From assembly GCA_028376655.1 (NCBI GenBank), contig JAONAZ010000009.1, positions 1-36,503 on the forward strand: a DNA stretch of 36,503 nucleotides, in the 5' to 3' direction. A program made the position numbers and the translations under genes. This stretch comes from Acidimicrobiia bacterium. Lineage in GTDB: Bacteria; Actinomycetota; Acidimicrobiia; Actinomarinales; Actinomarinaceae. A model generated the notes under the pieces. That model made no database searches, was not told the DNA's origin, and saw only the letters and a program-made list of their open reading frames with translations. This document shows positions 1,724 through 31,027 of this stretch, in pieces. The first letter of the stretch is position 1, and each line of letters begins with the position of its first letter.

Positions 1724-2752
1724 ATGAAGGTTGGATTTTTATCAGATATAAATGGGTTCAGATCGCCATTGCATCCAGACTCTCTTAAAAAATATGATAA
1801 AACACAATTATTTGTTGAAAAAGATATATTTAAGAATCTTGACTTGGAGTCTAAAGACTACAAAAAACTTAAAACTTTAAACAAAACAGCTATGAAGCAA
1901 ATGGATGTTATATGCTTTGTTGATTCTGTAGACGTAGATATAGTTAAGTCACTGAAGCCTGACACAAAAATTATCGGTCTCTTTGATGAAAAAACTAAAA
2001 AAGATATCCAAAAAATAAGACAAGATTTAGCGCTGTATGATTTTTTCCAACTTCCACGAATTTCAAGAGCACAGAATATGGATGCTCTTTCATCACAAGC
2101 AAACCTACTTGGATACGCATCAGTTCTACGAGCTTCACTAGAAACTTCAAATGTTATTCCTATGATGACTACTGCAGCAGGGAATATTTCACCAGCTAAA
2201 GTATTAATTCTAGGAATAGGTGTAGCTGGCTTACAGGCTATTGCTACAGCAAAAAGATTAGGCGCACGTGTTTGGGGTTATGATGTGCGAGCTGATGTTA
2301 AGGATCAGGTAGAAAGTCTTGGTGCAAAATTTGTAGAAGCAAGCTCCACATCCCAAGATGGCGTGTACGCAAAAGAGTTGACGAAGAAGGAAGAAGCAGA
2401 TTTAAAGAAAGCACTAGCTAACCAAGTTATTGATAGTGATATTGTGCTTACCTTTGCTCAGATACCTGGTAAAAAAGCACCCTTATTAATTGATAAAAAG
2501 ACAGTTTCTAAAATGAAAAAGAACTCAGTTATTGTTGATTTAGCTGCAGGAACAGGTGGTAACTGTGAACTTACAAAAGTCGGAAAAGTTGTTCAAAAAG
2601 ATGGCGTAAAGATTGTTGGGGAGATGGATATTCTTAAAAATGTAAAACATGCTGCAACAAAGCTCTATTCAGAGAATATTAGAAATCTTGTTCAGCTTCT
2701 TGAAGAGAATCCAGAAGATGAAATATTTGAAGAAATGAGCAAACATGACTGA
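1724..2752 (+). CDS. pntAA: NAD(P) transhydrogenase alpha subunit, NAD-binding domain I (PntAA)
   Basis: This is the soluble NAD(H)-binding domain I of proton-translocating transhydrogenase, which transfers hydride from NADH to NADP+ using the proton gradient. The signature SRAQNMDALSSQANLLGY lies at about residues 114-131. The Rossmann glycine motif GIGVAGLQA starts at residue 164, followed by LGARVWGYDVR. The 342 residues are on the short side for the family, and the first 60 or so residues are divergent and lysine-rich rather than the usual N-terminal sequence. The gene heads a three-gene operon and overlaps pntAB by 8 nt (ATGACTGA). In this three-subunit form, domain I and the first membrane segments are separate proteins, as in Rhodospirillum-type enzymes. 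Confidence 0.92.
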   Translation: MKVGFLSDINGFRSPLHPDSLKKYDKTQLFVEKDIFKNLDLESKDYKKLKTLNKTAMKQMDVICFVDSVDVDIVKSLKPDTKIIGLFDEKTKKDIQKIRQDLALYDFFQLPRISRAQNMDALSSQANLLGYASVLRASLETSNVIPMMTTAAGNISPAKVLILGIGVAGLQAIATAKRLGARVWGYDVRADVKDQVESLGAKFVEASSTSQDGVYAKELTKKEEADLKKALANQVIDSDIVLTFAQIPGKKAPLLIDKKTVSKMKKNSVIVDLAAGTGGNCELTKVGKVVQKDGVKIVGEMDILKNVKHAATKLYSENIRNLVQLLEENPEDEIFEEMSKHD

Positions 2753-3032
2753 GATTTTTCTATACACCTTATTAATTACTGCAATGGCTAGCTTTATAGG
2801 GTATGAACTGATTTCAAAAATACCTCAAACATTACACACCCCTCTCATGTCAGGCTCAAATGCAATTTCAGGCATTACCTTAATTGCAGGTATTCTTATT
2901 TATCCAAATGTAGTTGATGATATATTACTTAAAACAATTGTGCTTATTGGAGTCTCCTTTGCGACTATGAATATAGTTGGCGGATTCTCTGTTACTGGAA
3001 GAATATTAGAAATGTTTAAGAAAAATGACTGA
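2745..3032 (+). CDS. pntAB: NAD(P) transhydrogenase small membrane subunit (PntAB)
   Basis: The 95-residue membrane protein supplies the short first part of the proton channel (domain IIa). It has an N-terminal transmembrane segment, the conserved PQTLHTPLMSGSNAISGI region (about residues 27-44) that packs near the membrane face, then two hydrophobic helices. PQTLHTPLMSGSNAI is highly characteristic of PntAB. The start overlaps the pntAA stop by 8 nt, and its own stop overlaps the pntB start in the same way, implying translational coupling and equal subunit supply. Confidence 0.93.
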   Translation: MTEIFLYTLLITAMASFIGYELISKIPQTLHTPLMSGSNAISGITLIAGILIYPNVVDDILLKTIVLIGVSFATMNIVGGFSVTGRILEMFKKND

Positions 3033-4353
3033 ATCACTTTATCTCATCTCCGCAGTACTTTTTATCCTTGCGCTTAAATTGTTTTCAAGACCTTCTACTG
3101 CATTTCGTGCCAACAATTTAGCTATTGGAGGTATGGTTTTAGCAATCATCTCTGCATTTAATCTTAAGTTTGCCGATTATGACGGTGTGTTTTATTTAGT
3201 AATTCTTGTTTCAGCAGGGCTTGGAGTAGTTGTTTCTAACAGGGTACAGATGACACAAATGCCAGAGTTAGTCGGTATTTTTAATGGCCTTGGGGGTGGA
3301 GCATCAGGAGCTATTGCTTATGTGGAGCTCTCAAATAGTACTTTGGTTCTTTCAGATTTCTCAGTAGCCATATTTTCTATGACCGTAGGTGTCTTTACTT
3401 TTTCTGGAAGTTTAATTGCAGTAGCTAAATTACGTGGAAAGTTAAATAGTTTCAATGCAACAGTAATCAATATTTTGTCAGGAGTATTACTGGGCGGGGT
3501 AATTGCCTTGCTTATAACTAAAATAGACTACTCAACTGAGTACATCATCATTCTTTCTCTATTACTTGGAATATCACGAGTGGTATTAATTGGTGGCGCC
3601 GATATGCCAGTAGTCATAGCATTCTTAAACTCATTATCGGGAATTGCTGCAATGGCAGCAGGGTTTATTGTAAACAGTATCATCTTGATCATAGCGGGTG
3701 CCTTAGTTGGAGCATCTGGAATTATTCTTACTCTTTTAATGTGTAGCGCCATGAATAGAACTATTTACCAAGTACTTAAAGGTGGTTTTGGAACAACGAA
3801 GATCAACAATGAATATGCAAAAGATCCAATTAGTACATCTGCAGAGGATATTGCTATTCAGTTAAGCTATGCGGAATCTGTTGTCATTGTACCGGGTTAC
3901 GGTATGGCTGTTGCACAAGCACAGTCTGCAGTAAAAGAACTTACCAATACCTTGAAATCAAAAAATATTGGAGTGAAATTTGCTATCCATCCAGTAGCTG
4001 GAAGAATGCCAGGACATATGAACGTTTTATTAGCAGAAGTAGATATTGATTATGAGGATATGTTTACCTTAGAAGATATTAATTCTGAGTTTTCCGCAAC
4101 GGATGTAGTACTTGTTATTGGTGCGAATGACGTTGTAAATCCATTAGCAAGAACAGATGAAGACTCTCCAATCTATGGGATGCCAATCTTGGATGTGGAT
4201 ATGGCAAAACAGGTTGTTGTAATAAAAAGATCTATGTCACCAGGTTATGCTGGGATTGCTAACCCACTCTTTATTGAAGAGAATACGAAAATGTTATTTG
4301 CGGACGCAAAAGAAGGCTTAGAAAATATTGTTAAATCTTTTGAATTGGTATAA
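3025..4353 (+). CDS. pntB: NAD(P) transhydrogenase beta subunit (PntB)
   Basis: The 442-residue protein combines the multi-span proton channel (domain IIb, about residues 1-260) with the NADP(H)-binding domain III at the C-terminus. Domain III is recognised by VPGYGMAVAQAQ, then HPVAGRMPGHMNVLLAEV, GANDVVNP, and the late KRSMSPGYAGI-NPLF motif. Length and domain order are normal for PntB. It overlaps pntAB by 8 nt (ATGACTGA). The complete pntAA-AB-B set should form a functional NADPH-generating enzyme, which fits the nearby fatty-acid genes that consume reductant. Confidence 0.95.
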   Translation: MTESLYLISAVLFILALKLFSRPSTAFRANNLAIGGMVLAIISAFNLKFADYDGVFYLVILVSAGLGVVVSNRVQMTQMPELVGIFNGLGGGASGAIAYVELSNSTLVLSDFSVAIFSMTVGVFTFSGSLIAVAKLRGKLNSFNATVINILSGVLLGGVIALLITKIDYSTEYIIILSLLLGISRVVLIGGADMPVVIAFLNSLSGIAAMAAGFIVNSIILIIAGALVGASGIILTLLMCSAMNRTIYQVLKGGFGTTKINNEYAKDPISTSAEDIAIQLSYAESVVIVPGYGMAVAQAQSAVKELTNTLKSKNIGVKFAIHPVAGRMPGHMNVLLAEVDIDYEDMFTLEDINSEFSATDVVLVIGANDVVNPLARTDEDSPIYGMPILDVDMAKQVVVIKRSMSPGYAGIANPLFIEENTKMLFADAKEGLENIVKSFELV

Positions 4354-4362
4354 AAAATTATA

Positions 4363-4368
4363 TATACT
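4363..4368 (+). promoter_or_regulatory. -10-like TATACT for gene at 4374
   Basis: TATACT ends 5 nt before the ATG at 4374, inside the 20 bp gap after pntB. The membrane-protein gene may therefore have its own leaderless transcript as well as read-through. Confidence 0.4.
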
Positions 4369-4373
4369 TTTAG

Positions 4374-5033
4374 ATGATTAACGGTGATTATTTAGCAATA
4401 GAGAAACCTTTACTTTACCTTCATATTCTCGCCGGTTTTATTTCTCTAGGTATTGCCTATGTTCTTTTATTCATCAAGAAAGGTAATAAAAGACACAAAA
4501 AATTAGGGATGATTTATGTGTATGGGATGTCAACTATTTTTGTGACAGCAATTCCACTAAGTTTGCTTGGAGAATTCAACCCATTTCTGTTTGTTATTGC
4601 CATTTTCTCGTTTTATCTCGCATTTTCAGGATATCGCCAAGGTCGAGATAGAAATGGAGCACGTGAGCAAATAGATAAAGTTCTAGGTGTATTCATTACT
4701 GCTACAAGTATTCTTTTTTATTCTATGGCTGTGAGTTTATATTTAATCGAAGATTCTATGTGGATTACCTCTGTTGTTTTTGGAAGCATAGCATTAGGTA
4801 TGGGTATTAATGATTTTCGTCGTATGAAGATAGTCGAACGTCCAGATTTTTATGACAGAACTAATCTGCATTTAAACCTCATGCTTGCTGGAACTATTGC
4901 AACTACAACTGCATTTATTGTGACTTTAAATCCATTTTCTATTGATTGGCTTAACTGGGTTGCCCCAACTATTGTAGGAACCCCTATTATTATTTATTTC
5001 TCAAAAAGAGAGTTAGCTAAAAAAGTTACTTAA
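4374..5033 (+). CDS. DUF2306-like multi-pass membrane protein
   Basis: The 219 residues form about seven hydrophobic segments. The first contains LHILAGFISL and is followed by KKGNKRHKKLGMIYVYGM. This H...G...K...RH..LG layout is typical of DUF2306-like predicted membrane proteins, in which conserved histidines lie near the membrane face. A charged loop GRDRNGAREQIDK follows the third span, and a second basic loop (DFRRMKIVERPDFYDRTNLHLN) precedes the last two. The function is unknown. Heme or metal coordination by the histidines is possible but not shown. It starts 20 bp after pntB, so co-expression with transhydrogenase is plausible, although a TATACT element lies just before its start. Confidence 0.7.
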   Translation: MINGDYLAIEKPLLYLHILAGFISLGIAYVLLFIKKGNKRHKKLGMIYVYGMSTIFVTAIPLSLLGEFNPFLFVIAIFSFYLAFSGYRQGRDRNGAREQIDKVLGVFITATSILFYSMAVSLYLIEDSMWITSVVFGSIALGMGINDFRRMKIVERPDFYDRTNLHLNLMLAGTIATTTAFIVTLNPFSIDWLNWVAPTIVGTPIIIYFSKRELAKKVT

Positions 5034-6252: not shown

Positions 6253-7296
6253 CTAAATATTTTTGAAAATATATTTATTAAACACTTTCATTTTTTCAAC
6301 CCAAGTGTCTTCATAAAAATAATGTACAGATGCAGCAACAGATGACAATAAGGCATTTCCATCTTGCGGGGTAAAACAATAACCCGTCAACTGATTACCT
6401 TTTACGTGTAGCGAATCAACTGCGACAACACCATGTGAGAGAATTCTTCCGTGGTATCCATGGTCTCGACCGAAAGAGAAGACTTTATTGGAGGAGAGTT
6501 TCTCAGTAGACATAAGATGCTCACTACTATCTAACTCTTCCAGGACGGTATTAAGCTCTAAACTATTTTCAAATGTTAAGTTGAACCAAAGCGTATGCAT
6601 GTATTGGGTTGGTAGTTTTATCGCTGAGGAAAATAGATCTAACTCCAGACCATCTTGTTTGAATAATTCATAAACATCCCTTGCATGATGCGTACCGAAA
6701 TCCTGGTTGTCATGCTTGGTAATAGTCGGAGATGGAGCAAAAGAGTCATTTTGCGAGACATCATTTGCCCTACGAAGACAAACAAATCTTCCATCACTCA
6801 ATTCTCGACCTGCATCTTGAGTAAAAGTTTTAACAATTGAGGCCATGTTGTGGGTATTGCATGAAGCAACAAGGTATTTATTAATATCAGTGGTCAATAC
6901 ATCATTATTTATTCCCCAGGCAAAGAAGGGGCCAAAGCCATGCTCTGAACCCTGAGCGAGATAGCGCTTACCAGGATCTAATTTAGAATACACCCTATCC
7001 CAATTGTCATTTCCAGTTGGTGTACAGTCAATAATTACTTGAGAATCTATATATGCGTTCGCAACATCACCAGCATCAAAACCTAATGTTTTAAAATCTG
7101 CAATAGTTTCTGTTTTGGTAACTAACTCAGCACCTTTTCTCTGGAGTGCTTCTACTTTTCCTCTTTCCTCAGTTAAAGGAGTTCTTTTGAAAAAGTAGAC
7201 GTTGTCAATACCTAGTGCTGGTTTATGTTCAGCAAGTAAACCAATAAGAGGTTCACCAATTGTTCCAGTTCCCACGACTAAAATGTTTTTACTCAA
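6253..7296 (-). CDS. Type II (archaeal-type) glyceraldehyde-3-phosphate dehydrogenase homologue
   Basis: The 347 residues do not look like the usual bacterial GapA. They follow the archaeal type II family in order: N-terminal nucleotide fold GTGTIGEPL (residues 10-18); VIIDCTPTG (87-95); the catalytic-cysteine motif ASCNT (144-148, Cys146); RRANDVSQ (175-182), then HHARDV (203-208); and LPTQYMH (228-234), aligning with the archaeal PTTLMH. In the family the cysteine forms the thioester with glyceraldehyde 3-phosphate, and the enzyme can use NADP. Some otherwise typical positions differ, so another oxidoreductase role is possible. No in-frame ATG lies near the N-terminus. TTG at 7294-7296 gives the expected beginning, only 24 bp from the divergent ppdK ATG. 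Confidence 0.7.
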   Translation of the reverse strand: MSKNILVVGTGTIGEPLIGLLAEHKPALGIDNVYFFKRTPLTEERGKVEALQRKGAELVTKTETIADFKTLGFDAGDVANAYIDSQVIIDCTPTGNDNWDRVYSKLDPGKRYLAQGSEHGFGPFFAWGINNDVLTTDINKYLVASCNTHNMASIVKTFTQDAGRELSDGRFVCLRRANDVSQNDSFAPSPTITKHDNQDFGTHHARDVYELFKQDGLELDLFSSAIKLPTQYMHTLWFNLTFENSLELNTVLEELDSSEHLMSTEKLSSNKVFSFGRDHGYHGRILSHGVVAVDSLHVKGNQLTGYCFTPQDGNALLSSVAASVHYFYEDTWVEKMKVFNKYIFKNI

Positions 7297-7320
7297 TATA
7301 ATATAAGAATATCAAATATT
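7297..7320. promoter_or_regulatory. 24 bp divergent promoter region between GAPDH-like gene and ppdK
   Basis: The two start codons face away from each other across 24 bp. On the plus strand a perfect TATAAT (7297-7302) precedes the ppdK ATG by 18 nt. On the minus strand TATATT (7300-7305) lies directly before the TTG start. The two -10-like elements overlap, so the promoters probably compete. Neither gene shows a Shine-Dalgarno sequence. Confidence 0.5.
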
Positions 7321-9969
7321 ATGAATAACAACCACATTTTTGAATTTTCCAAAAACCATACAGATGGAGATGCTTCGTTAACAGATTTACTTGGAGGTAA
7401 AGGTGCAAACTTAGCTGAGATGAGCAAAATGGGTATTCAGGTTCCACCAGGTTTCACAATCACAACTGAGGTTTGCAACTACTTCATGGAACATGAAAAA
7501 TTACCAGATAGTTTAGAAAAAGAAATTAAGGTAGCTATCGAGAAACTAGAACAATACTCCGATAAACAATTCGGTGGAGACGGTACACCACTACTTTTAT
7601 CTGTTCGTTCAGGTGGTAAAGTATCTATGCCGGGAATGATGGACTCAATTCTAAATATTGGTTTAAATGATGAAAATGTTAGTAAGTTAGCAGAGGCATT
7701 CGATGATGAGAGATTTGCTTTAGATTCATACAGGAGATTAATTCAAATGTACTCCAATGTAGTGTTGGGCTTGGAACATGAGCGCTTCGAAGCAGTCATC
7801 GCTAACAAAAAAAGAATGGATAATGTTGCCTCTGATGCAGATTTTACTGTTGATCAATTAAATTGGATTATCGATGCTTTTAAAAATACAATTGAGAGAT
7901 TCTCTGAAGTTCCCTTTCCACAGGATCCTCAGGATCAACTAGTTGGTGCTGTAGAAGCAGTTTTTGCTAGTTGGCTAAACGATAGAGCTGTAACCTACAG
8001 GAAAATTAATAATATTCCTGACACATGGGGAACAGGGGCAACAATTCAAACTATGGTTTTTGGTAATTTAAATGAAAAGTCTGGTACGGGAGTAGCTTTT
8101 ACAAGAAATCCATCCGATGGGATTAAAGAATTATATGGAGAGTATTTAATGAATGCACAGGGAGAAGATGTTGTTGCAGGAATTAGAACACCATTACCAC
8201 TCAATAAAGAAGCATCAACTGGCGGTGATTCTTTAGAAGTAAAGCATCCTAAGGTTTATGAAGAGATAGTTAATACTGCTAGCAAGCTTGAAAATCACTT
8301 TAAAGAAGTTCAAGACATAGAATTTACAATCGAGAATGAAAAAGTCTTCTTATTGCAGACAAGAAAAGCCAAAAGAACTGCTCAAGCAAGTGTCAAGATT
8401 GTAATTGATATGGTTGAAGAGGGAGTTGTTACTAAAAAAGAGGGACTCTTGATGGTCGATGCTAATAATATAAATAATCTTTTACACCCACAGTTTGTGG
8501 AATCACAAGAAAAAAAATTCTTTAATAAAGCTTTGAATGCATCGCCTGGAGCAGCAGTTGGTGAAATTGTATTTGATGCAGATAAAGCAGAGGAAGAGGC
8601 GACAAAGGGTAGAGATGTCATTCTCGTGAGAGATGAAACAAGCCCAGAAGATATTCACGGTATGCATTCTTCTGTAGGAATCCTGACAACAAAAGGTGGC
8701 ATGACCAGTCACGCTGCAGTTGTTGCACGAGGCATGGGTAAGCCATGTGTTGTTGGAGCTGAAAATCTTTTTATTGACCTAGAAGAGAAAACTATATCAA
8801 ATGGAACCATCACCCTCGAAGAAGGAGATTTAATTTCTCTTGATGGAACATTGGGTGAAGTATATATAGGAGAGTTAGAATCGGAACCACCCAAGCTTTC
8901 TAAAGAGTTCAATACACTTATGGAGTGGAGTGATGAATTTAGAAGAATGAAGGTTAGAGCTAATGCAGAAACAACCATGGATACAAAAAAAGCTTTAGAG
9001 TTTGGAGCTGAGGGCATTGGTCTTTGTAGAACTGAACATATGTTTTTTGAAGGGGAAAGAATCATTCCTATGCGTGAGATGATAATGTCTGACAGCGTGC
9101 AGGGAAGGAAAAGAGCATTACGTAAATTAATCAAATACCAAGTGGCTGATTTCGAATCTATTTTTAAATTACTGCAAGAAAAACCAATTACTGTACGACT
9201 CCTTGATCCACCTATGCATGAGTTTTTGCCTAAGAGTGATATTGAAATGACAGATTTAGCAAATGTTATAGGTGTTACTCCTACTTATGTGAGGGAGATG
9301 CTTTTAAGACTCTCAGAAAGCAATCCTATGCTTGGTCATCGTGGAGTAAGGCTTGGATTGAGTTATCCAGAAATTTACGAAATGCAAGTTGAAGCAATTT
9401 TGAAAGCTGCACATAAGTTGTTTAAAAAAGATGGAGTAATGGTAACTCCTGAAATAATGATTCCACTTGTCATGAATGCTTCAGAGCTAGAGCAAATGAA
9501 AGAAATTCTTATTCATAAAATTCAAAAGGTAGAAAAGAAACTAGATTTTGAATTTTCTTACACCATAGGAACAATGATTGAGTTACCAAGTGCAGCATTA
9601 AACTCTACCGCAATTTCAGAGCATGCAGATTTCTTTTCATTTGGAACTAATGACTTAACACAGACTACCCTCGGTCTCTCAAGAGACGATGCTTCGAAGT
9701 TTTTAAATGAATATGTAGAAAGAGATATTTTTAGTGTTGATCCTTTCGTCTCAATTGACGTTGAGACTGTCGGAAAATTAGTTGAAACATCAGTTCTTGA
9801 TGGTCGAAAAAAGAATAAAGATATCAAAATAGGTGTTTGTGGTGAACATGCTGGTGAAGCAGATTCAATAAACTTTTTTAATACTTTAGGGATTGACTAC
9901 ATATCTTGTTCCCCCTTTAGGATTCCAACTGCTCGATTAGCAGCTGCACAAGCTGAAATTACTAAATAA
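7321..9969 (+). CDS. ppdK: Pyruvate, phosphate dikinase
   Basis: This 882-residue cytosolic enzyme interconverts pyruvate + ATP + Pi and phosphoenolpyruvate + AMP + PPi. It is full length, with an N-terminal ATP-grasp domain (LGGKGANLAEM at about residues 24-34, then SVRSGGKVSMPGMMDSILN), a swivelling phospho-histidine domain, and a C-terminal PEP/pyruvate TIM barrel. The phosphorylated His464 sits in GGMTSHAAVVARGMGKPCV, and the C-terminal catalytic Cys840 in GVCGEHAGE. Both positions correspond to known PPDK residues. It diverges from the type II GAPDH homologue across 24 bp, so the two could be reciprocally controlled steps of lower glycolysis/gluconeogenesis. All key motifs are intact. 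Confidence 0.97.
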   Translation: MNNNHIFEFSKNHTDGDASLTDLLGGKGANLAEMSKMGIQVPPGFTITTEVCNYFMEHEKLPDSLEKEIKVAIEKLEQYSDKQFGGDGTPLLLSVRSGGKVSMPGMMDSILNIGLNDENVSKLAEAFDDERFALDSYRRLIQMYSNVVLGLEHERFEAVIANKKRMDNVASDADFTVDQLNWIIDAFKNTIERFSEVPFPQDPQDQLVGAVEAVFASWLNDRAVTYRKINNIPDTWGTGATIQTMVFGNLNEKSGTGVAFTRNPSDGIKELYGEYLMNAQGEDVVAGIRTPLPLNKEASTGGDSLEVKHPKVYEEIVNTASKLENHFKEVQDIEFTIENEKVFLLQTRKAKRTAQASVKIVIDMVEEGVVTKKEGLLMVDANNINNLLHPQFVESQEKKFFNKALNASPGAAVGEIVFDADKAEEEATKGRDVILVRDETSPEDIHGMHSSVGILTTKGGMTSHAAVVARGMGKPCVVGAENLFIDLEEKTISNGTITLEEGDLISLDGTLGEVYIGELESEPPKLSKEFNTLMEWSDEFRRMKVRANAETTMDTKKALEFGAEGIGLCRTEHMFFEGERIIPMREMIMSDSVQGRKRALRKLIKYQVADFESIFKLLQEKPITVRLLDPPMHEFLPKSDIEMTDLANVIGVTPTYVREMLLRLSESNPMLGHRGVRLGLSYPEIYEMQVEAILKAAHKLFKKDGVMVTPEIMIPLVMNASELEQMKEILIHKIQKVEKKLDFEFSYTIGTMIELPSAALNSTAISEHADFFSFGTNDLTQTTLGLSRDDASKFLNEYVERDIFSVDPFVSIDVETVGKLVETSVLDGRKKNKDIKIGVCGEHAGEADSINFFNTLGIDYISCSPFRIPTARLAAAQAEITK

Positions 9970-10835: not shown

Positions 10836-13364
10836 ATGAGAAAATATTTAGTCATCGTCCTTGCATTCTTCACTTTCTGCTCAAACGATGCTTCTATAAC
10901 TGATGATTATTATGTCCTAGACTGTAGCGAAATAGAAAAAAATTTTAGTCAAATGGAAGAAAGTATAGAAGAATTAGAAAGTAAGGATTCTCTTACCCTT
11001 GAGGAAGAGCAGGAATTAGAAAACCTTATGGATCGAATCGTATGTCACGAAGAGTATGTTAAGGAGGCTGAAGATGATTACGAAGACCAGCCTTTTGACG
11101 AAGAAGAATTAACAGATTTTAATGATCCGATTGTAGCTAAATACTTTACTGAAAACGAGGCTGATCCAAGTTATAACCCAGGTAAATTTTTACCTCGTCA
11201 CTGTACTTATGAGGGAAGATATGAAGATATTTTTTATGAAGAGACCCCCGTCCTTGAGGTGCCATTTAAAGATGAATTAATTTTAGATTTGTATCCAGAA
11301 ACGCTCGGACTTTTTAGTGAGGGACTGTTTCCAAGAAATATCGAAGATTATGGTGGAGAGTACGGAGAGCAGCTTGGTGAATTTAAATGTCAACCAGATT
11401 GGAGTTTTAGCTCTAGTTTTGGTGGAGACGTAGTAGCAACAAATAATGAGCCAGATGAAACAAAAAGACAAGATTTTTACGGACTGTCATTTTACGATAG
11501 AATATTTCCTTTTTACAGTGTGACGCCTGCAGAGCAACAAGGACTTTGGGGGCAATGGATTCAAGCTCCAGATTCACATCCCTATGGACCAGCAGGCGGA
11601 AGTATTGAGGGTGGGCTAGGTGTATATGACAAATTTGGACGTACAAAATATCCAATCTATATGGCCTCTGGAGCAACTTTGTACTACAACCCAAATAGTT
11701 CATTTTATGGTTGGGGTTTCTATGAAACAAGAGTTCCTTGCGATTGTTATGGTGGTGTTCAACTCACAAACAAAGTATTAAATCTTCCAAATGCTATTCA
11801 CTTTGATGAAGATCAAAATGAATACAATGAAGATGGAGGTATATATTTTGGACATGGCTGGTTTGCGCTTCCTATTTTTAGCGGAGACAAGAGAGTTGAA
11901 ACTCAAGAACCAACAACTGATACAGGGAAGTTGACATGGACTTTTATTGCAAATACCGCCCAGTACAGTGGTCCAATGTGGGCATATGTTCCAGAGTTTT
12001 GGCATAGAAGAATTGATAGATGGAATGCTTTAGAAATGATTTTAGATGGTGAAGATCAGATATCAGAGGAAAATTATCAAACTCTAATTGATTTTCTTGG
12101 TAACAAAATAGATAAAGACACTTTATATGAAGAAATTTCAGATGAAGAATGGTTTATTAGCGATGTTGAGGAGTTTGACCAAGAACAAGGAGGGGTGTTT
12201 TGGGTTGATGAAAAAAATACACTTGCTTACACTACAACAGAATATGCAGCTATTGGATCAGAAATGGGAGAGTTACCAGCATTTACTGAATATGATAACG
12301 ATGGAAATTTATATTTAAAAATTTTCCCACCATCTGTGCCATCAACTGGTGATAAAGAATATTTCACATTAGACGGAAGAATATATGATATTAATTTATA
12401 TAATCATTTTGTTGATTTCTTCTCTGGATCTCAAGATTTAAGTGATATGGATCCAAGTTTTTTAAAATTCTCGAAACCACTAGTTGTTGAAAGAACGGAG
12501 AAAGCTCGACCAGATTTAGAAATGTCCGACTTATTTGTAAGTACAGATTCACAATCTTCATATCAAGCTGAAACTCTTGATGGCTTATCTGTTTCATGGA
12601 ATGTAGTACTAACGGGTGAGACAAATAATGGTGAAACAAATATGTTTTGGGACTGGTCGGGAACTAATAGTGAGGATAGAGATTTGAGTCAGTATTATAA
12701 AGTAGAAATTAACGGATCAAGTGAAGATTTTGAAGATTATATTTTCACTCCTGTTGATGAAAGCGAAGTACCAGGATCATTACAAGTATTAGAGATGAGT
12801 ACACTTGAACGTACTGTATCTTATATGCCTCATATTAAGACAGCTCAAGATAGTAGTTTAGAAGCTGAAATAAAGTCTGATATAGATGAATCATTAGGTA
12901 TTGACTCAACACCACTTGATTTTTCATGTTGGGATTGTGAAAGTGAGGGATGTGATCCTGAAATCTATGAGTCAGTTTTAGATGATGGCAGTAAAATTAA
13001 ATATCGCTGGTATAGATTCAAAGATCAACCAAGTTTTAAGTATTTAAAAATAGATTATCCTGATATTTACACTGACGAGTATTTAGATCTTGTTCAATCA
13101 AGAGTTGAACAAATGCATAAAGAATGGGGACCAAACCAAGAGTTTATTGCTAATCCTGAGACTTTAGAAAATTTTCATCTTGTGGAGCTTGATAACGGAT
13201 CCGTTGTTAAACCCCCAGTTGGTAAAGAAGTTGGTTGGGTGCCTATAGTTTTAGAACTAGAGATACCTTATGGTGAGTATCAAGATCAATTACACTATAA
13301 CGAGTTTATGGAACTGTATGGTGAAAGGGCAAATGAGTTCAGCGCGATAACGATGCTTCCTTAA
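10836..13364 (+). CDS. Large secreted lipoprotein of unknown function (842 aa)
   Basis: I do not recognise a catalytic family. The N-terminus is a lipoprotein signal (MRKYLVIVLAFFTFC, Cys15), with Phe just before the cysteine. A short acidic coiled coil follows (about residues 27-65), containing KDSLTLEEEQELENL. That coiled coil and the signal peptide are nearly repeated in the lipoprotein at 13375-14580, although the rest is unrelated. The main body is acidic and rich in Trp, Tyr and Gly. It has a cysteine pair DCDCYG-like region near residue 300 (PCDCYGG), FGHGWFALP near 345, and a cysteine cluster CWDCESEGC near 690. No HExxH is present. The likely location is the outer face of the membrane. 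It is convergent with the next gene, with a 10 bp gap. Confidence 0.8.
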   Translation: MRKYLVIVLAFFTFCSNDASITDDYYVLDCSEIEKNFSQMEESIEELESKDSLTLEEEQELENLMDRIVCHEEYVKEAEDDYEDQPFDEEELTDFNDPIVAKYFTENEADPSYNPGKFLPRHCTYEGRYEDIFYEETPVLEVPFKDELILDLYPETLGLFSEGLFPRNIEDYGGEYGEQLGEFKCQPDWSFSSSFGGDVVATNNEPDETKRQDFYGLSFYDRIFPFYSVTPAEQQGLWGQWIQAPDSHPYGPAGGSIEGGLGVYDKFGRTKYPIYMASGATLYYNPNSSFYGWGFYETRVPCDCYGGVQLTNKVLNLPNAIHFDEDQNEYNEDGGIYFGHGWFALPIFSGDKRVETQEPTTDTGKLTWTFIANTAQYSGPMWAYVPEFWHRRIDRWNALEMILDGEDQISEENYQTLIDFLGNKIDKDTLYEEISDEEWFISDVEEFDQEQGGVFWVDEKNTLAYTTTEYAAIGSEMGELPAFTEYDNDGNLYLKIFPPSVPSTGDKEYFTLDGRIYDINLYNHFVDFFSGSQDLSDMDPSFLKFSKPLVVERTEKARPDLEMSDLFVSTDSQSSYQAETLDGLSVSWNVVLTGETNNGETNMFWDWSGTNSEDRDLSQYYKVEINGSSEDFEDYIFTPVDESEVPGSLQVLEMSTLERTVSYMPHIKTAQDSSLEAEIKSDIDESLGIDSTPLDFSCWDCESEGCDPEIYESVLDDGSKIKYRWYRFKDQPSFKYLKIDYPDIYTDEYLDLVQSRVEQMHKEWGPNQEFIANPETLENFHLVELDNGSVVKPPVGKEVGWVPIVLELEIPYGEYQDQLHYNEFMELYGERANEFSAITMLP

Positions 13365-13374
13365 TAATGTTACC

Positions 13375-14580
13375 TTAGTAACCCGATGAACCTGCCACTG
13401 TTGGATCGCCTACATCTCCATCTTGAAATATATCCCTTATAGTACTTAAATCTGGTTTACTGATAACAGGTGCTATATATGTGTTATATAACTCATGACC
13501 TAATGGATTATTTGTAAGAATCCCTGATGGTGTACGCATACTGTCATTCCATTCAGGAGAAAGCGTTCCATTTTCCCATAAACTAGTGTATTCAAACATA
13601 CCGAAGTTAAGTAAGTACAAGTATTCTTTCTGTGCAATTTCAAACATTTCTGGATCAGTCTTCCAAGCATCACCACCATATCCTTCTGAATCCCAAAGAC
13701 CTCCATCATAAGCTTCTTTCATGGCAGCATACACGGGTCCGCTTGCCCAATCTGATGAAAGGTATGAATATTGTTTAAGTGCTAATGCGTCTAAACCACT
13801 CATATGAATAGTATGGAATACGTGCTCAAGAACTTCTGCTGCATCAACGTCACCCTTGCCAAATCCCTCTCCAGAAGAATTTAAATACCAAACCATATCA
13901 TTGTTAAAGGTCGAGTCATTTATATCATCTAAATTGAAACTCTCAGGAGACCTAAGAAAATTAGAACTGTAATCATCTCCTCCTCCTCGCGCTACCCTTT
14001 GGAGTGTGGGTATTCCTGCATGATATGTACCTGGATCACCTTTTAGTGTCTTAATAAAAGTTATTTGTGCATTTGCATCTATGCCGTCTCCATTAGGATC
14101 TGTAAATAATTCAACCATTCGAGCAACTTTTTCTAAGAATGCATCAGGCACTGCTTGTTGTCCACCAACATTTCCCGCTGCTACAATTCTTACGCCATTA
14201 ATAGTGACTTCACGTTTATAGAATTCACTACCTGATCCGGCAACGTCAAGGATTCCACCTTTTTGATATGCAGAAGTTGTAGTAGTTTCTTCTTCAGTTA
14301 CTTGTGAGTCCTCTTCGAGCTCCTCTTCAGCCTCGTCTAAATCTTCTTCGAGTTCCTCTTCAGCCTCGTCTAAATCTTCTTCGAGTTCCTCGAATTGCTC
14401 CTCAAGGTTTTCTAATTCCTGCTCTTCCTCGGGAGTGAGTGAGTCCTTATTTTCTAAATCTTCTATTTTTTCTTCTGTTTGTATAATATCTTTTTCTATT
14501 TCGCTTAAGTCTGTAGATATATCTGCATCATTTGAGCAGAAAGTGAAGAATGCAAGAATGACAACAAAATATTTTTTCAT
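13375..14580 (-). CDS. Secreted lipoprotein with acidic coiled coil and EHxxHxxH motif
   Basis: The 401 residues begin with a lipoprotein signal ending FFTFC (Cys15). An acidic coiled coil (about 25-92) carries an 11-residue tandem repeat LEEDLDEAEEE, then a Thr-rich linker. The globular part (about 108-401) has VRIVAAGNVGGQQAVPDAFLE, a calcium-loop-like DPNGDGIDAN (161-170), and LEHVFHTIH (251-259) with Glu252, His253, His256 and His259. From memory this resembles an uncharacterised family of secreted proteins with a VPD..L..A start, a D-x-D-G segment, an E..H..TH motif and a C-terminal EY-rich helix. No enzymatic role is known to me. The ATG at 14580 has TAGGAT 6 nt upstream. Confidence 0.75.
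   Translation of the reverse strand: MKKYFVVILAFFTFCSNDADISTDLSEIEKDIIQTEEKIEDLENKDSLTPEEEQELENLEEQFEELEEDLDEAEEELEEDLDEAEEELEEDSQVTEEETTTTSAYQKGGILDVAGSGSEFYKREVTINGVRIVAAGNVGGQQAVPDAFLEKVARMVELFTDPNGDGIDANAQITFIKTLKGDPGTYHAGIPTLQRVARGGGDDYSSNFLRSPESFNLDDINDSTFNNDMVWYLNSSGEGFGKGDVDAAEVLEHVFHTIHMSGLDALALKQYSYLSSDWASGPVYAAMKEAYDGGLWDSEGYGGDAWKTDPEMFEIAQKEYLYLLNFGMFEYTSLWENGTLSPEWNDSMRTPSGILTNNPLGHELYNTYIAPVISKPDLSTIRDIFQDGDVGDPTVAGSSGY
14317..14390 (-). repeat. 33 bp tandem repeats in coiled-coil segment
   Basis: Two nearly identical 33 bp units (14317-14349, 14350-14382) and the start of a third encode the 11-residue LEEDLDEAEEE repeat. They differ at only one base, which suggests recent duplication. 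Confidence 0.75.
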
Positions 14581-14699: not shown

Positions 14700-17600
14700 T
14701 TATGAAGCCTTAACAAATTCCCAAGTATGGTAATTAAAAGTATAGGTTGAACCATCTTCCGGTTCGTATACTTTTGGCCTATTACAAAAATAATCAGCCA
14801 TATAATATCGACCATCTTCACCACCAACTAAACCGCCTGAAAAGAAGGTTCCTTTATATCTCTCGCACTGTCCACCCATCGCATTTCTCTCTTTAATAAA
14901 GTAGTATTGTCCCAATGCTTTAAATATCTCCTTTTCATCTTTACTCGCCGTAGGATGCTCCGCAAGATTTTCACCATAAATATTCATTAAAATTGCATAT
15001 GAAAATCTAGTATGCACATCTGAAGAGTCAAAGGAGATTCCTTCTTTTATGATCTCTGTTGCTTTAAGATAAAAATTTAATGAAACTTTTTCTTTATTCT
15101 CAATTTCTAAGTATCCATCAGCAATCTGTCTATAGCCACTGGCAATAATATTATGAGCAGCAATGAAATCACTTAAATTTTTATCAAACCATATAGGATT
15201 AATAGAATCTACACCAGATAACTGATCAGGGTCTTGTGCTATATTTTCTAATTCACAATCTTTTAATTCAATATTAAGTTGTTCTTTATTGGAGAAACAT
15301 ACCTTACTTCCAAGTTCATCACGATATTGTTTACCTTCAGATACTGAAAACCATCCTTCTGCACTAGAAAGTTCTCTGAGTTCTTTTAGGTCTAAAGCTA
15401 ATTGATTGTTATCAAAAGAGTATTCATTATTAAGGTCAACTCTTGTATTTAAGATTCTACTAAGGAGTGCACTAGAGCTAAATGTATTCTGAAGTAAGGA
15501 TTTTTTAGTAGCATCGTAGGCGGTATTTGTTAAAGAGTAGGCTTCACTTGGTTCTTCAATTAAAAAAGATTTAGCGAGATATCCATAGGGGATAGTTGGA
15601 ATGAGATCTATTGCTTTTTGTATCAATTCTGCTGAATCCTCTTCTAATGCTCTAAAGTAGAGTTCTTTATAAAGGTCTATATCTGATACTAAAATATCTC
15701 CATACTTAATTGATGAAGTTTCAACTTTAGGCATATTAAGATAACTTTCAGAATTCATCAACAATTCTTTCATATTGAGGTTAACATTTTCGAGACCGCT
15801 CCATCTCCAACTCATGGACAGTTTGTGGTCTCTCCATTTATTTCCTGGATTTGAATCCACAATGTTATCAAGAATTCCATCTTTAAATATAATTTCTGCC
15901 TCACTAAAAGGTCTCTCGGCAATATTAGCTACTGCTAAGTTGAATTTTTCAGGCTCATTTCCGTATGCATATGATCGGGGGCCAAAATGGTTTATGTAAT
16001 CATCTACTGTCCATTCAATAACTTCCATAGCCTTAACTTCATTATTTTCATCACATATAAAATCATTAATAGTTTCAAGGCAGCCATTTATAGAGACATC
16101 TACGAGGTGATAATATGTTTCCTTAACTTCACTTGCTTCTAGAACTCCCGCAGCATAAAGAAATATGTCACTTGTAACTTTGTTTAAACTATCACTTGGT
16201 ACTGCTTTGAACTTGCCATTTTCATTAATTATCCTTGTACCAAAGGTCTCACCACCTTTTGAAATTTTAACATTTTTGTAACTACGACCATCAGGTTGAA
16301 GAATTTTAAAGTCGCCCTGCAGTGAGTTTATAGCTGTGGTGTAAGGTGTTAAGTGCATGTAGTCTGGATAACTAAGTGAGGCCCATTTAGGACCTGGAAA
16401 AGGATCTTTTATTCCACCATCTGCTTGTCCAAATATAGAGTGTTCATACTCATGAAGGAACGCTCCCATTTTGGGGTTTCCCATCATTACGACTGCTTGA
16501 AGCTCCATATGAGCTTTTCCATCAGACCAAAGGCCTGCTTTTATATCAGTTGATTGAGCTGGAGCTGGCTGGTTGTTGTTGATGTAATAGTCATGATAAA
16601 AACCCGTACCTCTAATATGATCATTCAGCCTCATCATATGACCTCTTGAAAAATCTTCTCGCGGGCTGATTACTATTGTGTGAATATTATCATCAAATAA
16701 TTCAAAGATATAACGATAAACAAGAGCATCATCATTTGGGGTAAATACAATAGGGTTATTGAAATTATTATATTGTGTGTAGTCATATCCAATATTTAAA
16801 AATATCCCAGAATCAGTCATGACAACATTCTCACTTACTTGAAAGATATCAATAGAATTCCTTAAAGAGGGATTGAGAACGTGCAATTTGCTTATCTGGA
16901 TGTAGTTTTTGTCGTTAAAAGCATAATCTTTTGCTAACGTAATACAATTATTCGTATACACACCGTCACCTGCTACTTGATCACCATGGGTTCCATCATC
17001 ATAAACATATGCTTTTTCTGAAATACCATTATGTGTTGAAAGAAATTGGTCGGAGAACTCTGATTTAAGAATCCCTTTTCTGTTTGAGGCATCGTCGATA
17101 ATGGTAACTTTAGTTGCTTCATCTGGAAATATAATTTCTGGATTAAAGTACGTATCATACCTAGGGTTCTCTAGAGTATTTACAGCTTGACCTGAACCAC
17201 TAGTGTATCTTGTACCGTATGAAGCTCTGAGCCACTTTGAGTTACTAGAATCACTTGGAAAAAATCTTTCTACTACTGCAGGATTTGTATAGCTACCATC
17301 TGTGGCACTTGCATCACAGGAGGCAGCTTTCTGTGGAATATAAAGTAGAGGATCCGAGCAATTAAGATTTGAAGTATCAACGTCACATAAACGGTTAATA
17401 CTGAGTGGTCTTTTTGTGTCGTATGATAAAGAAGATTCTTCATCAGAACTTAAATCGGTAACTTTCCCAACATCACTTCCTCCACATAAAGGAAGAAGTC
17501 TTGTATTTAGAATCTCTACTTTTTTATTAACTTGCAATAAGTATGAGTTTATAAACTTTAGACCATCGTCCGTTGGTGACAACCTGTCGTAGTTAGTAAA

Positions 17601-18581
17601 ACCTCTAAACAGGTTTCGTAGTTCTTCAATAGATTCAGCAGTTAGGTTCTCATCCCAAGGAATAGTTTCTATAAAGTCACCACTATTATTATTTTCATAC
17701 TCCTCTATATTTTCGTTCGAGGGAATTGGCTCCATTCTTTTAAGAAGATGGCCTTCTATATCCAATTTAAATTCTTCTAACTTTTTTCTCGAACCAACGA
17801 ATTCATTAAAGACTTGTATTTCGTAGCAACCTGCTCTTTCGAGATCTGAAGTTAGGTACTGTCCAATGGATGATTCATTTTCTTCATCTGATTCACTAGC
17901 AGATAGCACAAGGTCACTACATGGTGGAGTTGTAGAAAGAATGATCTCCTGTGCGGCGATGTAGTCCTCAATTTCTTCTACAGTTTGAGAACTTGGTGAG
18001 AAGTTTTCTATTTGTCCTTCTAATTCAAGAATTCTTTCTTCTATTTCTAGAATTCTTGGAAAGTTTCCTTTTTTTAATATATAACGGTTTAAAGTTGCAT
18101 CCAGTAAACCGGCCTTATCTCTAGCTAAATTGAGCTGATCTTGTTCTTCAGCGGTTAAAGAATCCCTGCTTTCTAGAGGATTAATTGTTCCGTCATAGAG
18201 CTCTTCTAAAATACTATCCTGACCAAAATTATCGAAATCAACTTCTTCATAAGTAATTCCTAATTTTTCTTCTAAACGTAAAATAGTTTTGTTTAGATTA
18301 TCCTCGTTTTCACCAACTCCATCATTAGAAGATAGCTCATTTCTAAGTATTTCGATTTCAGTCATTAATTCCTCAGGTGTTGCTGTATTTCCATCACGTG
18401 ATTTCAGTTCACCCAGTTGGATACCATTTTCAATTATATTTTTATTAATTTCCTCGATTTCTGTGGTACTTAAACACTCAGCATCATCAATAACTACATT
18501 TGAGGCTGTTTCTTCACCACCATCTCCACATAAAGTGAGTACCAATGACATTGCCAACAGGAGGATTACTTTATTTTTCAC
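14700..18581 (-). CDS. Very large secreted lipoprotein with HEYEH motif (1293 aa)
   Basis: The N-terminal signal MKNKVILLLAMSLVLTLC places Cys18 after Leu, an unusual lipobox. Residues 40-220 are acidic and predicted coiled coil, including SRDSLTAEEQDQL, which echoes the DSLT-EEEQEL motif of the two neighbouring lipoproteins. A DDGTHGDQVAGDGVYT segment (about 530-545) is a motif seen in Ig-like or anchor domains of secreted proteins. HEYEH at 710-714 (LHEYEHSIFGQADGG) is an HExxH-type candidate zinc site. The C-terminal third is helical and may be TPR-like. GTG 18581 is chosen from the signal peptide; TACTAT is 7 nt upstream. Function is unknown, and a cell-surface metallopeptidase is a hypothesis only. 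Confidence 0.75.
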   Translation of the reverse strand: MKNKVILLLAMSLVLTLCGDGGEETASNVVIDDAECLSTTEIEEINKNIIENGIQLGELKSRDGNTATPEELMTEIEILRNELSSNDGVGENEDNLNKTILRLEEKLGITYEEVDFDNFGQDSILEELYDGTINPLESRDSLTAEEQDQLNLARDKAGLLDATLNRYILKKGNFPRILEIEERILELEGQIENFSPSSQTVEEIEDYIAAQEIILSTTPPCSDLVLSASESDEENESSIGQYLTSDLERAGCYEIQVFNEFVGSRKKLEEFKLDIEGHLLKRMEPIPSNENIEEYENNNSGDFIETIPWDENLTAESIEELRNLFRGFTNYDRLSPTDDGLKFINSYLLQVNKKVEILNTRLLPLCGGSDVGKVTDLSSDEESSLSYDTKRPLSINRLCDVDTSNLNCSDPLLYIPQKAASCDASATDGSYTNPAVVERFFPSDSSNSKWLRASYGTRYTSGSGQAVNTLENPRYDTYFNPEIIFPDEATKVTIIDDASNRKGILKSEFSDQFLSTHNGISEKAYVYDDGTHGDQVAGDGVYTNNCITLAKDYAFNDKNYIQISKLHVLNPSLRNSIDIFQVSENVVMTDSGIFLNIGYDYTQYNNFNNPIVFTPNDDALVYRYIFELFDDNIHTIVISPREDFSRGHMMRLNDHIRGTGFYHDYYINNNQPAPAQSTDIKAGLWSDGKAHMELQAVVMMGNPKMGAFLHEYEHSIFGQADGGIKDPFPGPKWASLSYPDYMHLTPYTTAINSLQGDFKILQPDGRSYKNVKISKGGETFGTRIINENGKFKAVPSDSLNKVTSDIFLYAAGVLEASEVKETYYHLVDVSINGCLETINDFICDENNEVKAMEVIEWTVDDYINHFGPRSYAYGNEPEKFNLAVANIAERPFSEAEIIFKDGILDNIVDSNPGNKWRDHKLSMSWRWSGLENVNLNMKELLMNSESYLNMPKVETSSIKYGDILVSDIDLYKELYFRALEEDSAELIQKAIDLIPTIPYGYLAKSFLIEEPSEAYSLTNTAYDATKKSLLQNTFSSSALLSRILNTRVDLNNEYSFDNNQLALDLKELRELSSAEGWFSVSEGKQYRDELGSKVCFSNKEQLNIELKDCELENIAQDPDQLSGVDSINPIWFDKNLSDFIAAHNIIASGYRQIADGYLEIENKEKVSLNFYLKATEIIKEGISFDSSDVHTRFSYAILMNIYGENLAEHPTASKDEKEIFKALGQYYFIKERNAMGGQCERYKGTFFSGGLVGGEDGRYYMADYFCNRPKVYEPEDGSTYTFNYHTWEFVKAS

Positions 18582-28097: not shown

Positions 28098-30215
28098 ATG
28101 AAACAGTTGGTCGTCGAAAGGAATAATCCGGTACCTGTTATTTGGGATACACCAATTCCACAGCCAGGACCGAATGAGGTTCTTGTAAGAAATTATTACT
28201 CTGTTGTATCTTCTGGTACAGAGTTAGCCTCTATAGAGTCTGCAAATAAAAGTGTCACGGATAAGCTTCAAGACTCCTCAAATATCAGTAAAGGTTTAGA
28301 CCTATTAAAAAAAGAGGGATTAGGTGCGGTCATTGATGCTGTATTTCCAAAAAATATATTGCCACTTCAGCTTGGCTACAGCTCTTGTGGAGAAGTAATT
28401 CAAGCTGGAAAAGATGTAAAAGACTTTCACGTTGGAGATAAAGTGGTTTCAAATGGTAGTCATGCAGAATATGTGACGGTCAATCAAAATTTATGTTCCC
28501 GAATTCCTGAGAATACTTCTGAAAAAGAAGCTGCCTTTACAGTACTCGGTAGTATTGCCCTACATGGTCTGAGGCTTTCAGAAACGACACTTGGGTCTAC
28601 AATAGTTGTTATTGGTCTTGGGATTGTTGGACAATTGGTTTGTAGACTTGCTGAAGCACAAGGGTGTGAAGTTATTGGAGTTGACCCTGATGAAAAAAGA
28701 ACTCTCAATAGGAAAAACTTCTACACCTCTATTGATGACGCAATAAATGATAAATCTATTAATTCAGAAAATGTTGATGCAGTCATTATTACTGCAGCCT
28801 CCTCAAGTAATGAACCAATAGAGGTAGCAACACGTATTGCTAGGAATAAAGCAAAGATCGTAGTTGTAGGTGATATTCCACTGAATATTTCAAGAAATGA
28901 TTTTTACTACAAAGAACTAGAACTAGTTGTCTCTAAGTCATATGGACCTGGTAGATATGATAAACAGTATGAGGTTCTTGGAAATGATTACCCCATAGAA
29001 CATGTCCGATGGACAGAAAATAGGAATTTTTCAGCTTTCCTTCAACTCTTACAAACAAATCAGATTTCATTGTCAGATATGATTACAGAGGAAATAGATT
29101 TTATTAATGCTCCTTCTATATATGAAAAATTTGAATCTGCTGATAAACCACTATCAATTGTTCTTAGGTATGAACTCAACAATGAACCCAAAATTGATTT
29201 CGAGAAGACTGACACGTCTACACCTTCATCTAATGGAAAAATTAAATTAGGAATTATTGGAGCAGGTAACTTTGCTTCTACAACAATCCTCCCAATCCTA
29301 CGTGAGTTAAAACGAGAATGTGAAGTTATTGGTGTTGCCTCTTCAGGTGGCTTAAGTGCAGAAGTACTCTCTAGAAATTTTAAAATTAAAAACAAATATT
29401 CAACTGAGAGTGAGATTATTGATTCTGAGGAGATTGATGCAGTATTTATTTTGACACAACATCATAATCATGCAGAACTTGTTATTAAAGCTGTTAATGC
29501 CGGTAAAGCTGTATATGTTGAAAAACCTTTAGCTTTAGAAGTAGGGTCTTTAATTGAGATTGAAGAAGCAATGTACAACGCAGAAAATGCAAAAATATTT
29601 GTTGGCTTTAATAGAAGATTTGCTGAAGCTACTCAGTTTGTAAAATCAAAACTAAACAACACCCCAGCGAACAGTATTAATTTCCGTTTTAGCGTTCCTG
29701 CTTTAGACAAAGATCACTGGACGAACATTAAAGAAATCGGAGGGGGAAGAATCGTTGGTGAAGCAGTTCATGCAATTGATTTAGCTTCGTATCTTTTCGA
29801 TTCACTTCCACAAAGTATTTCAGCATCGTCACCTTTGGACAAAGAGAATGATGTAGCTTTAGATAACCAGGTATTTATCAATATTAACTTTGCTAACGGC
29901 TCCCATGCTGCAATCCAATACTTCAGTGAAACAAATCAATCATTAGCTAAAGAACGAATAGAAATACATGGCGGTGGAAATTCATACATTATGGAGGACT
30001 TCCAAATGCTTCGATACCTTGAAGAGTCGGATGATAAAAGTAAGGTGTTCTCAAAGGGAAAAGGACATAAGGAATCAATACAGGCATTTCTTACTTACGT
30101 AAAGGGTGAATCAAATAACCCTTACACTTGGCTTGAATTAAAATCTGTAGCTAAAGCAGCTATATATTCTCAAAATTACATGAACTCTGGCTCTCAACAC
30201 AGTATTTTTTCATAA
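28098..30215 (+). CDS. Bi-domain oxidoreductase (MDR dehydrogenase + Gfo/Idh/MocA)
   Basis: The 705 residues join two oxidoreductases. The first (about 1-360) is a medium-chain, zinc-ADH-like domain with LGYSSCGEVIQAGKDVKDF, GDKVVSNG, and a VIGLGIVGQLV nucleotide motif. The second (about 372-690) is Gfo/Idh/MocA-like, with LGIIGAGNFAS, the catalytic-region YVEKPLALEVG, and GFNRRFAEA. Such fusions are known in bacterial polysaccharide or nucleotide-sugar gene sets, but their substrates are mostly undefined. Shine-Dalgarno AAGGTGA lies about 8 nt before ATG 28098. It is 26 bp after birA and 2 bp before the phosphatase-family gene, so a single transcript is likely. Confidence 0.88.
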   Translation: MKQLVVERNNPVPVIWDTPIPQPGPNEVLVRNYYSVVSSGTELASIESANKSVTDKLQDSSNISKGLDLLKKEGLGAVIDAVFPKNILPLQLGYSSCGEVIQAGKDVKDFHVGDKVVSNGSHAEYVTVNQNLCSRIPENTSEKEAAFTVLGSIALHGLRLSETTLGSTIVVIGLGIVGQLVCRLAEAQGCEVIGVDPDEKRTLNRKNFYTSIDDAINDKSINSENVDAVIITAASSSNEPIEVATRIARNKAKIVVVGDIPLNISRNDFYYKELELVVSKSYGPGRYDKQYEVLGNDYPIEHVRWTENRNFSAFLQLLQTNQISLSDMITEEIDFINAPSIYEKFESADKPLSIVLRYELNNEPKIDFEKTDTSTPSSNGKIKLGIIGAGNFASTTILPILRELKRECEVIGVASSGGLSAEVLSRNFKIKNKYSTESEIIDSEEIDAVFILTQHHNHAELVIKAVNAGKAVYVEKPLALEVGSLIEIEEAMYNAENAKIFVGFNRRFAEATQFVKSKLNNTPANSINFRFSVPALDKDHWTNIKEIGGGRIVGEAVHAIDLASYLFDSLPQSISASSPLDKENDVALDNQVFININFANGSHAAIQYFSETNQSLAKERIEIHGGGNSYIMEDFQMLRYLEESDDKSKVFSKGKGHKESIQAFLTYVKGESNNPYTWLELKSVAKAAIYSQNYMNSGSQHSIFS

Positions 30216-30217
30216 AT

Positions 30218-31027
30218 ATGAATACTTCTTACGATATATATGAATTAAATAATGCTGTCCTGGATGCGTCCAAAACCATAAAAGACATGAGAAATGATTT
30301 TACTGTCGATTCAAAAGATGCAGTTGTGGACTTAGTAACAAATGCAGATCTTAAGTCTGAAGAAATTCTCATAGAGGCTATAACCAAATATTTTCCAGAG
30401 GATGGAATTATTTCAGAAGAATCAGATGAAGTCCTCTCTTCTAATGGCAGATCATGGTTAATTGATCCCTTGGATGGAACTGTGAATTACGCAAATAATA
30501 TTCCACAAGTTGCGATTACCCTGACTCTACTCATCAATAAAGTACCTCAACAAACTTATGTGTATGATATTTTTCAAGATGATTTATACGAAGGATATAC
30601 AAACAAGGGTGCGTATAAAAATTCTGAAAAATTACAAGTTACAAAAGAAACATCCCTACAAAAAGCAATTATTGCTACTGGTTTCCCCTATGACAGGTTG
30701 GAGTTTGGAGAGCAATACATACAGACCTTCCTCTCAATTCTCAAAACGACGGGTGGAGTAAGAAGGTTTGGATCGGCAGCATTAGATGTTTGCGGGGTTG
30801 CTGATAATAAGTTTGATGCTTATTATGAATTTTTCATTAAGCCATGGGACACTTTAGGGGCTAGCTTAATTTTAAAAGAAGCTGGAGGACTTGTAGTTGA
30901 TGAACATGAAGCATTTCCAACGCTTTCATCAAACTTAATTATTGCTACAAATAAAAACATACACAATGAATTCAAGAGCCTTATATTGGAAAATATTGAT
31001 CCGGAGTTGCTGAAAAGATTTAAGTAA
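30218..31027 (+). CDS. Inositol-monophosphatase-family phosphatase
   Basis: The 269 residues contain the metal-binding set of the IMPase superfamily: ISEES (Glu67/Glu68), DPLDGTVNY (Asp83, Asp86, Gly87, Thr88), and KPWDTLGASLILKEAGG near residue 210. These enzymes remove phosphate from inositol phosphate or related sugar phosphates using magnesium. The start lies 2 bp past the preceding stop. The neighbouring bi-domain dehydrogenase suggests a shared sugar or cyclitol pathway, which is inference. Fructose-1,6-bisphosphatase and histidinol-phosphatase activity also occur in this superfamily, so the substrate is open. Confidence 0.9.
   Translation: MNTSYDIYELNNAVLDASKTIKDMRNDFTVDSKDAVVDLVTNADLKSEEILIEAITKYFPEDGIISEESDEVLSSNGRSWLIDPLDGTVNYANNIPQVAITLTLLINKVPQQTYVYDIFQDDLYEGYTNKGAYKNSEKLQVTKETSLQKAIIATGFPYDRLEFGEQYIQTFLSILKTTGGVRRFGSAALDVCGVADNKFDAYYEFFIKPWDTLGASLILKEAGGLVVDEHEAFPTLSSNLIIATNKNIHNEFKSLILENIDPELLKRFK

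Follow-up and report, generated by a model that had tools for sequence, protein, structure and literature searches.

Bacillus subtilis GapB is a type I, NADPH-linked glyceraldehyde-3-phosphate dehydrogenase (GAPDH) with a gluconeogenic role. Haloferax volcanii uses gapII for gluconeogenesis and gapI for glycolysis (PMC10817205). Canonical type II GAPDH has been called uncommon in bacteria, and the one bacterial member of that group for which we came across an assay in the literature showed no measurable activity (PMC6543838). The gene described here lies in a 36,503-nucleotide stretch of DNA, the whole of which we call the window, and an earlier note had taken its product for an archaeal-type (type II) GAPDH. 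We find that the gene is real, well conserved, widespread and unnamed, and that its product belongs to a new, mostly bacterial family within the type II GAPDH fold that is separate from the archaeal enzymes. No description of this family was found in the literature (open-licence papers). The features on which the comparison draws are these.

1724..2752, plus strand, transhydrogenase alpha-like subunit with a PNT domain (PF01262, 172.6 bits)
3025..4353, plus strand, pntB, NAD(P) transhydrogenase beta subunit (NF006974, 400 bits, below the cut-off of 689)
6253..7296, minus strand, type II-like GAPDH gene, an intact open reading frame of 347 aa with a TTG start
6595..6597, minus strand, codon of His234, presumed catalytic base, aligned with His219 of 1cf2, invariant
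6685..6690, minus strand, codons of His203-His204, invariant and common to canonical type II
6769..6774, minus strand, codons of Arg175-Arg176, invariant and common to canonical type II
6859..6861, minus strand, codon of Cys146, presumed catalytic nucleophile in SCNTHN, aligned with Cys140 of 1cf2, invariant
7186..7188, minus strand, codon of Lys37 in the presumed NADP 2'-phosphate loop KRTP, aligned with Lys33 of Methanothermus fervidus GAPDH
7297..7320, 24-bp spacer between divergent start codons, shared promoter region
7321..9969, plus strand, pyruvate, phosphate dikinase (PPDK), the divergent neighbour (TIGR01828, 1245 bits, cut-off 843)

The source genome (883 kb, 79% complete) carries the gene on contig C34. 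Of 41 other Actinomarina genomes, 35 also have it, and each of the six that lack it is at most 75% complete. The gene is under strong purifying selection, with a dN/dS of about 0.05-0.08 against three congeners, a value that is approximate because synonymous sites are near saturation.

The window protein scores 79.1 bits against the NCBIfam type II GAPDH model NF003251, for which the cut-off is 185, and 49.6 bits against TIGR01546 (GAPDH-II_archae), for which it is 232.9. Four diverse homologues score similarly, and a canonical control (locus L041) passes. Type I GAPDH is recognised by PF00044 (Gp_dh_N) and PF02800 (Gp_dh_C) over their cut-offs; the only Pfam match of the window protein is a sub-threshold one to Gp_dh_C (12.9 bits, cut-off 24.4). 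A search for a better match to another dehydrogenase family, which the earlier note had proposed, returned none better than type II GAPDH; aspartate-semialdehyde dehydrogenase and erythrose-4-phosphate dehydrogenase were rejected as far weaker profile matches. With phmmer against the PDB, the first matches are the type II enzymes 1b7g, 2yyy and 1cf2. The same note had called for structure prediction, and an AlphaFold model built from 48 window and locus sequences is confident (pLDDT 90.2, pTM 0.89). Its six top PDB matches are all type II GAPDHs (TM 0.77-0.79 by query, E 2e-21 to 5e-20), the closest being 1b7g, 2yyy, 1cf2 and 2czc, and type I structures rank next with TM up to 0.69. The type II fold and catalytic layout proposed earlier are thus borne out by profile matches, PDB alignment and model, but as a statement of membership "archaeal-type" does not hold, since the protein falls far below both curated cut-offs and belongs to a family of its own across a saturated branch.

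The motifs quoted in the earlier note are present and align with solved type II GAPDHs. Cys146 and His234 align with Cys140 and His219 of the M. fervidus enzyme, the catalytic pair there. When the new family is aligned with 28 canonical type II sequences, the catalytic and phosphate-site positions common to the canonical enzymes show no variation across 48 of its proteins, drawn from many phyla, and Lys37 is invariant in both families. Common to both are GxGTIG, K37, P40, D90, P93, G95, Q115-G116, E118, S145-C146-N147-T148, R175-R176, D179, H203-H204, D207, M233-H234, R277 and Q311. The protein has the type II RR and HH pairs, the SCNT motif and a Lys at the NADP loop. Several positions differ from the canonical enzymes (e.g., NTHN for NTTG, S117 and Q231), as the earlier note had said of the archaeal ones. 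After the nucleophile the new family has SCNTHN, as opposed to the canonical SCNTT(G/A), and the window protein has Q231 and L236 in place of the canonical Thr and His (position 236). Invariant positions of its own are E15-P16, S117, H149-N150, T202, Q231, T309-P310 and D312-G313-N314.

The new family is not uncommon in bacteria, contrary to what had been supposed for this protein: degenerate scanning across 84,980 species genomes turned up at least 545 confirmed genome stretches. The best 80 of these come from Acidimicrobiia, Acidobacteriota, Marinimicrobia, Krumholzibacteriota, Bipolaricaulota, "Deltaproteobacteria", one Planctomycetota record and two Bathyarchaeota records, as read from record titles, which can be wrong for MAGs. 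In an even draw from the phylum of G111 (the genome of locus L080, titled Acidobacteria), 26 of 119 genomes carry the family, leaving out two more with weak matches of 47-49 bits. Across 22 carrier genomes from other lineages, NF003251 scores are 66-104 bits for the new family and 448 for two canonical members; in 81 genomes from the same phylum as a Bathyarchaeota carrier, the scores are 302-535 bits for canonical members and 84.8 for the single new-family member. No sequence scoring between the new family and canonical type II was found in the genomes searched. A quick tree places the 28 canonical sequences together in a single group, on a saturated branch of length 9, and the two Bathyarchaeota members among bacterial ones; because long branches attract, it does not fix the root or establish that the new family is monophyletic. 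Canonical archaeal-type type II GAPDH does occur in the bacterial genomes G072, G113 and G115, and the latter two (Acidobacteriota) hold it alongside the new family. Viral contigs yielded no relatives of the type II-like GAPDH.

The earlier suggestion that this might be the only GAPDH of the cell is ruled out by two type I GAPDH genes in tandem in the source genome (contig C12, 91558-93565, minus strand). Type I GAPDH is present in 21 of the 22 carriers from other lineages, the exception being a 1.5-Mb draft, so the type II-like enzyme is an extra GAPDH. In the tandem pair (see also locus L042, 5556-7566), an active gapA ("a") is preceded by an overlapping or adjacent type I paralogue ("b"). 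In Actinomarina, Asn replaces the catalytic Cys of paralogue b (SNTAN for SCTTN) and Thr takes the Arg231 position, and degraded paralogues with various substitutions precede gapA in other phyla too. Among 40 sampled tandem loci, the Cys is replaced in one partner in 25 (by Asn, Ser, Ala, Gly, Phe or Ile), often together with Asn for Arg231, and is kept in the others. Within the class, paralogue b occurs in 9 of 11 carriers versus 0 of 46 non-carriers (Fisher P 6e-9), and 17 of 26 carriers in the G111 phylum have tandem type I genes versus 7 of 93 other genomes there (P 4e-9), both P values being inflated by shared ancestry. In the carriers L201-L204 the first tandem gene is intact and the second is of another type, and in the non-carriers L185-L190 tandem sets can also hold a dead partner; the new family is therefore associated with tandem type I genes and not strictly with a dead one. 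That paralogue b is a regulatory subunit is speculation.

The adjacency to PPDK, on which the earlier note had based a role in central carbon flow, extends across the genus, with PPDK beside the gene in all 25 database loci of Actinomarina and a start-to-start spacing of 24-56 bp in 24 genus loci. The spacer has two layouts, one of 24-36 bp that is mostly without an evident ribosome site and one of about 55 bp with the inverted repeat CCCCCC...GGGGGG (L057-L065), the arms of which could provide the GAPDH-like gene and PPDK each with a ribosome site. Also nearby are transhydrogenase genes (19 of 25 genus loci; pntB is a possible NADPH supply), a glycerate kinase-like gene (21 of 25; best family match below cut-off), and malate synthase with isocitrate lyase (5 of 25). 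Elsewhere in the window, three open reading frames of 842, 401 and 1293 aa (10836-13364, plus; 13375-14580, minus; 14700-18581, minus) have no Pfam match at E 1e-5, and a 705-aa protein (28098-30215, plus) appears to join a zinc alcohol dehydrogenase to a GFO/IDH/MocA oxidoreductase in one chain.

Of 55 loci outside the genus, 15 have malate synthase and isocitrate lyase next to the type II-like GAPDH. Six of the non-genus loci have four genes in a row on the same strand, namely malate synthase, isocitrate lyase, GlpX and type II-like GAPDH, with about 10-55 bp between the last two, apparently a single operon in other Acidimicrobiia. The same-strand coordinates at L078 are as follows.

21-740, malate synthase
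803-2047, isocitrate lyase
2113-3123, GlpX
3134-4189, type II-like GAPDH

Within the class, true isocitrate lyase occurs in 8 of 11 carriers versus 4 of 46 non-carriers (Fisher P 4e-5); the species are not independent, and counted by family the figures are 3 of 3 versus 2 of 20. Sampled neighbourhoods outside Acidimicrobiia consist of uninformative housekeeping genes. A frequent antisense "neighbour", cluster 10, was discarded as an open reading frame artefact of high-GC DNA overlapping the gene. In the Bipolaricaulota locus L090 (6222-8833), pdxS (NCBIfam), a 190-aa open reading frame and the type II-like GAPDH stand in a row, the second being probable pdxT by position and length only.

A 93% complete relative, G037, has PGK, TPI and PEP carboxylase. 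It also has pyruvate kinase and hence no need of PPDK for glycolysis, which makes a glycolytic PPDK less likely. In its contig C2 (L251, near 4360-4458) all that is left of PPDK is a 33-codon remnant, next to an intact type II-like GAPDH. With E. coli queries, tblastn found no Fbp, GlpX, YggF, class II aldolase or ATP-PEPCK in G037, and malate synthase was not found there either. GlpX is absent from 26 Actinomarina genomes; given also the lack of class I Fbp in G037, the FBP-to-F6P step must go otherwise. GGND and PKTIDND motifs in a PFK-like protein of G037 suggest a pyrophosphate-dependent, reversible enzyme, and the window encodes an inositol-monophosphatase-family protein (30218-31027, plus strand). 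The missing conversion could be made by a PFK of that reversible type or by a phosphatase, the inositol-monophosphatase-family protein being one candidate.

Taken together, these findings lead us to favour, with moderate confidence, a phosphorylating GAPDH of a separate type II-like family that would act mainly in gluconeogenesis and leave glycolysis to type I GAPDH (gapA). The enzyme would convert 1,3-bisphosphoglycerate and NADPH to glyceraldehyde-3-phosphate, NADP and Pi, with Cys146 forming the thioester, His234 acting as base, and Arg175/Arg176 and His203/His204 binding the phosphates. PPDK, divergently transcribed, would supply PEP from pyruvate in Actinomarina, and in other Acidimicrobiia the gene lies in the apparent operon that also holds genes for malate synthase, isocitrate lyase and the fructose-1,6-bisphosphatase GlpX. 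We infer activity, direction, cofactor and single-residue roles from residues, fold and neighbourhood; the gluconeogenic role is probable, and a preference for NADPH is suggested by K37-R38-T39-P40 only. The gene is linked to gluconeogenic genes and is distinct from the glycolytic GAPDH, and the earlier proposal of a gluconeogenic or NADP-linked enzyme gains support, as a prediction, from the neighbourhoods and from the conserved K37-R38-T39-P40. Several points weigh against this explanation: NTHN for NTTG, S117 and Q231; the retention of the gene in G037 without a full PPDK and with no malate synthase found; the lack of measurable activity in the one assayed bacterial canonical type II enzyme that we came across (PMC6543838); the uninformative neighbourhoods outside Acidimicrobiia; and the missing GlpX and Fbp. 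A tentative extension, which we consider doubtful, is that this is a third phosphorylating GAPDH family working in a three-gene set, in which pseudoenzyme b would hold GapA to glycolysis and the type II-like enzyme would do the reverse.

GAPDH-like chemistry on a different phosphorylated aldehyde, such as erythrose-4-phosphate, would explain the altered residues near the nucleophile, and the positions H149-N150, S117, Q231, T309-P310 and D312-G313-N314 are invariant and unlike those of canonical type II; the vitamin B6 setting at L090 points the same way. The PdxST route, however, uses triose phosphate and not erythrose-4-phosphate, the phosphate sites retain their Arg and His residues, and the neighbours are gluconeogenic, including the operon with GlpX, so that we judge a different substrate unlikely. 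Slightly less likely again is an amphibolic or glycolytic NADP-reducing GAPDH that makes NADPH; K37-R38-T39-P40 does resemble the NADP loop of type II enzymes, and the type I genes might run the NAD-linked reaction both ways, but the neighbouring transhydrogenase would already supply NADPH, and PPDK, isocitrate lyase, malate synthase and GlpX are gluconeogenic. Acquisition of an ordinary archaeal type II GAPDH by transfer would account for the common fold and motifs, yet we hold it to be highly improbable, as the profile scores (66-104 bits against 300-535) have nothing between them in the genomes searched, canonical copies coexist with the new family in G113 and G115, and the few archaeal members group among bacterial ones.

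Few enzymes have been studied as thoroughly as GAPDH, yet this family, which occurs in hundreds of species and in abundant ocean bacteria, lies under the curated type II models and all Pfam cut-offs. Should it prove to be the gluconeogenic GAPDH, the metabolism reconstructed for Actinomarina, Acidobacteriota and other uncultured groups would change, and separate enzymes for each direction would be common in bacteria. Its co-occurrence with tandem type I genes, one often with a decayed active site, makes the regulatory-subunit idea directly testable.

Compared with canonical type II GAPDH (NF003251/TIGR01546), the new family is alike in fold, Cys, His, RR, HH, GxGTIG, KxxP and length, but is 18-20% identical to 1b7g, 1cf2, 2yyy and 2czc in structural alignment, falls below both cut-offs, has its own invariant residues and is mostly bacterial. 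As with gapII and gapI of Haloferax, a type II-like and a type I GAPDH occur in one cell with a similar division of labour, here suggested by neighbourhoods, although gapII is of a different sequence family. GapB likewise stands beside a glycolytic GapA, as we propose for the type II-like enzyme, but it is a type I GAPDH of a different subfamily.
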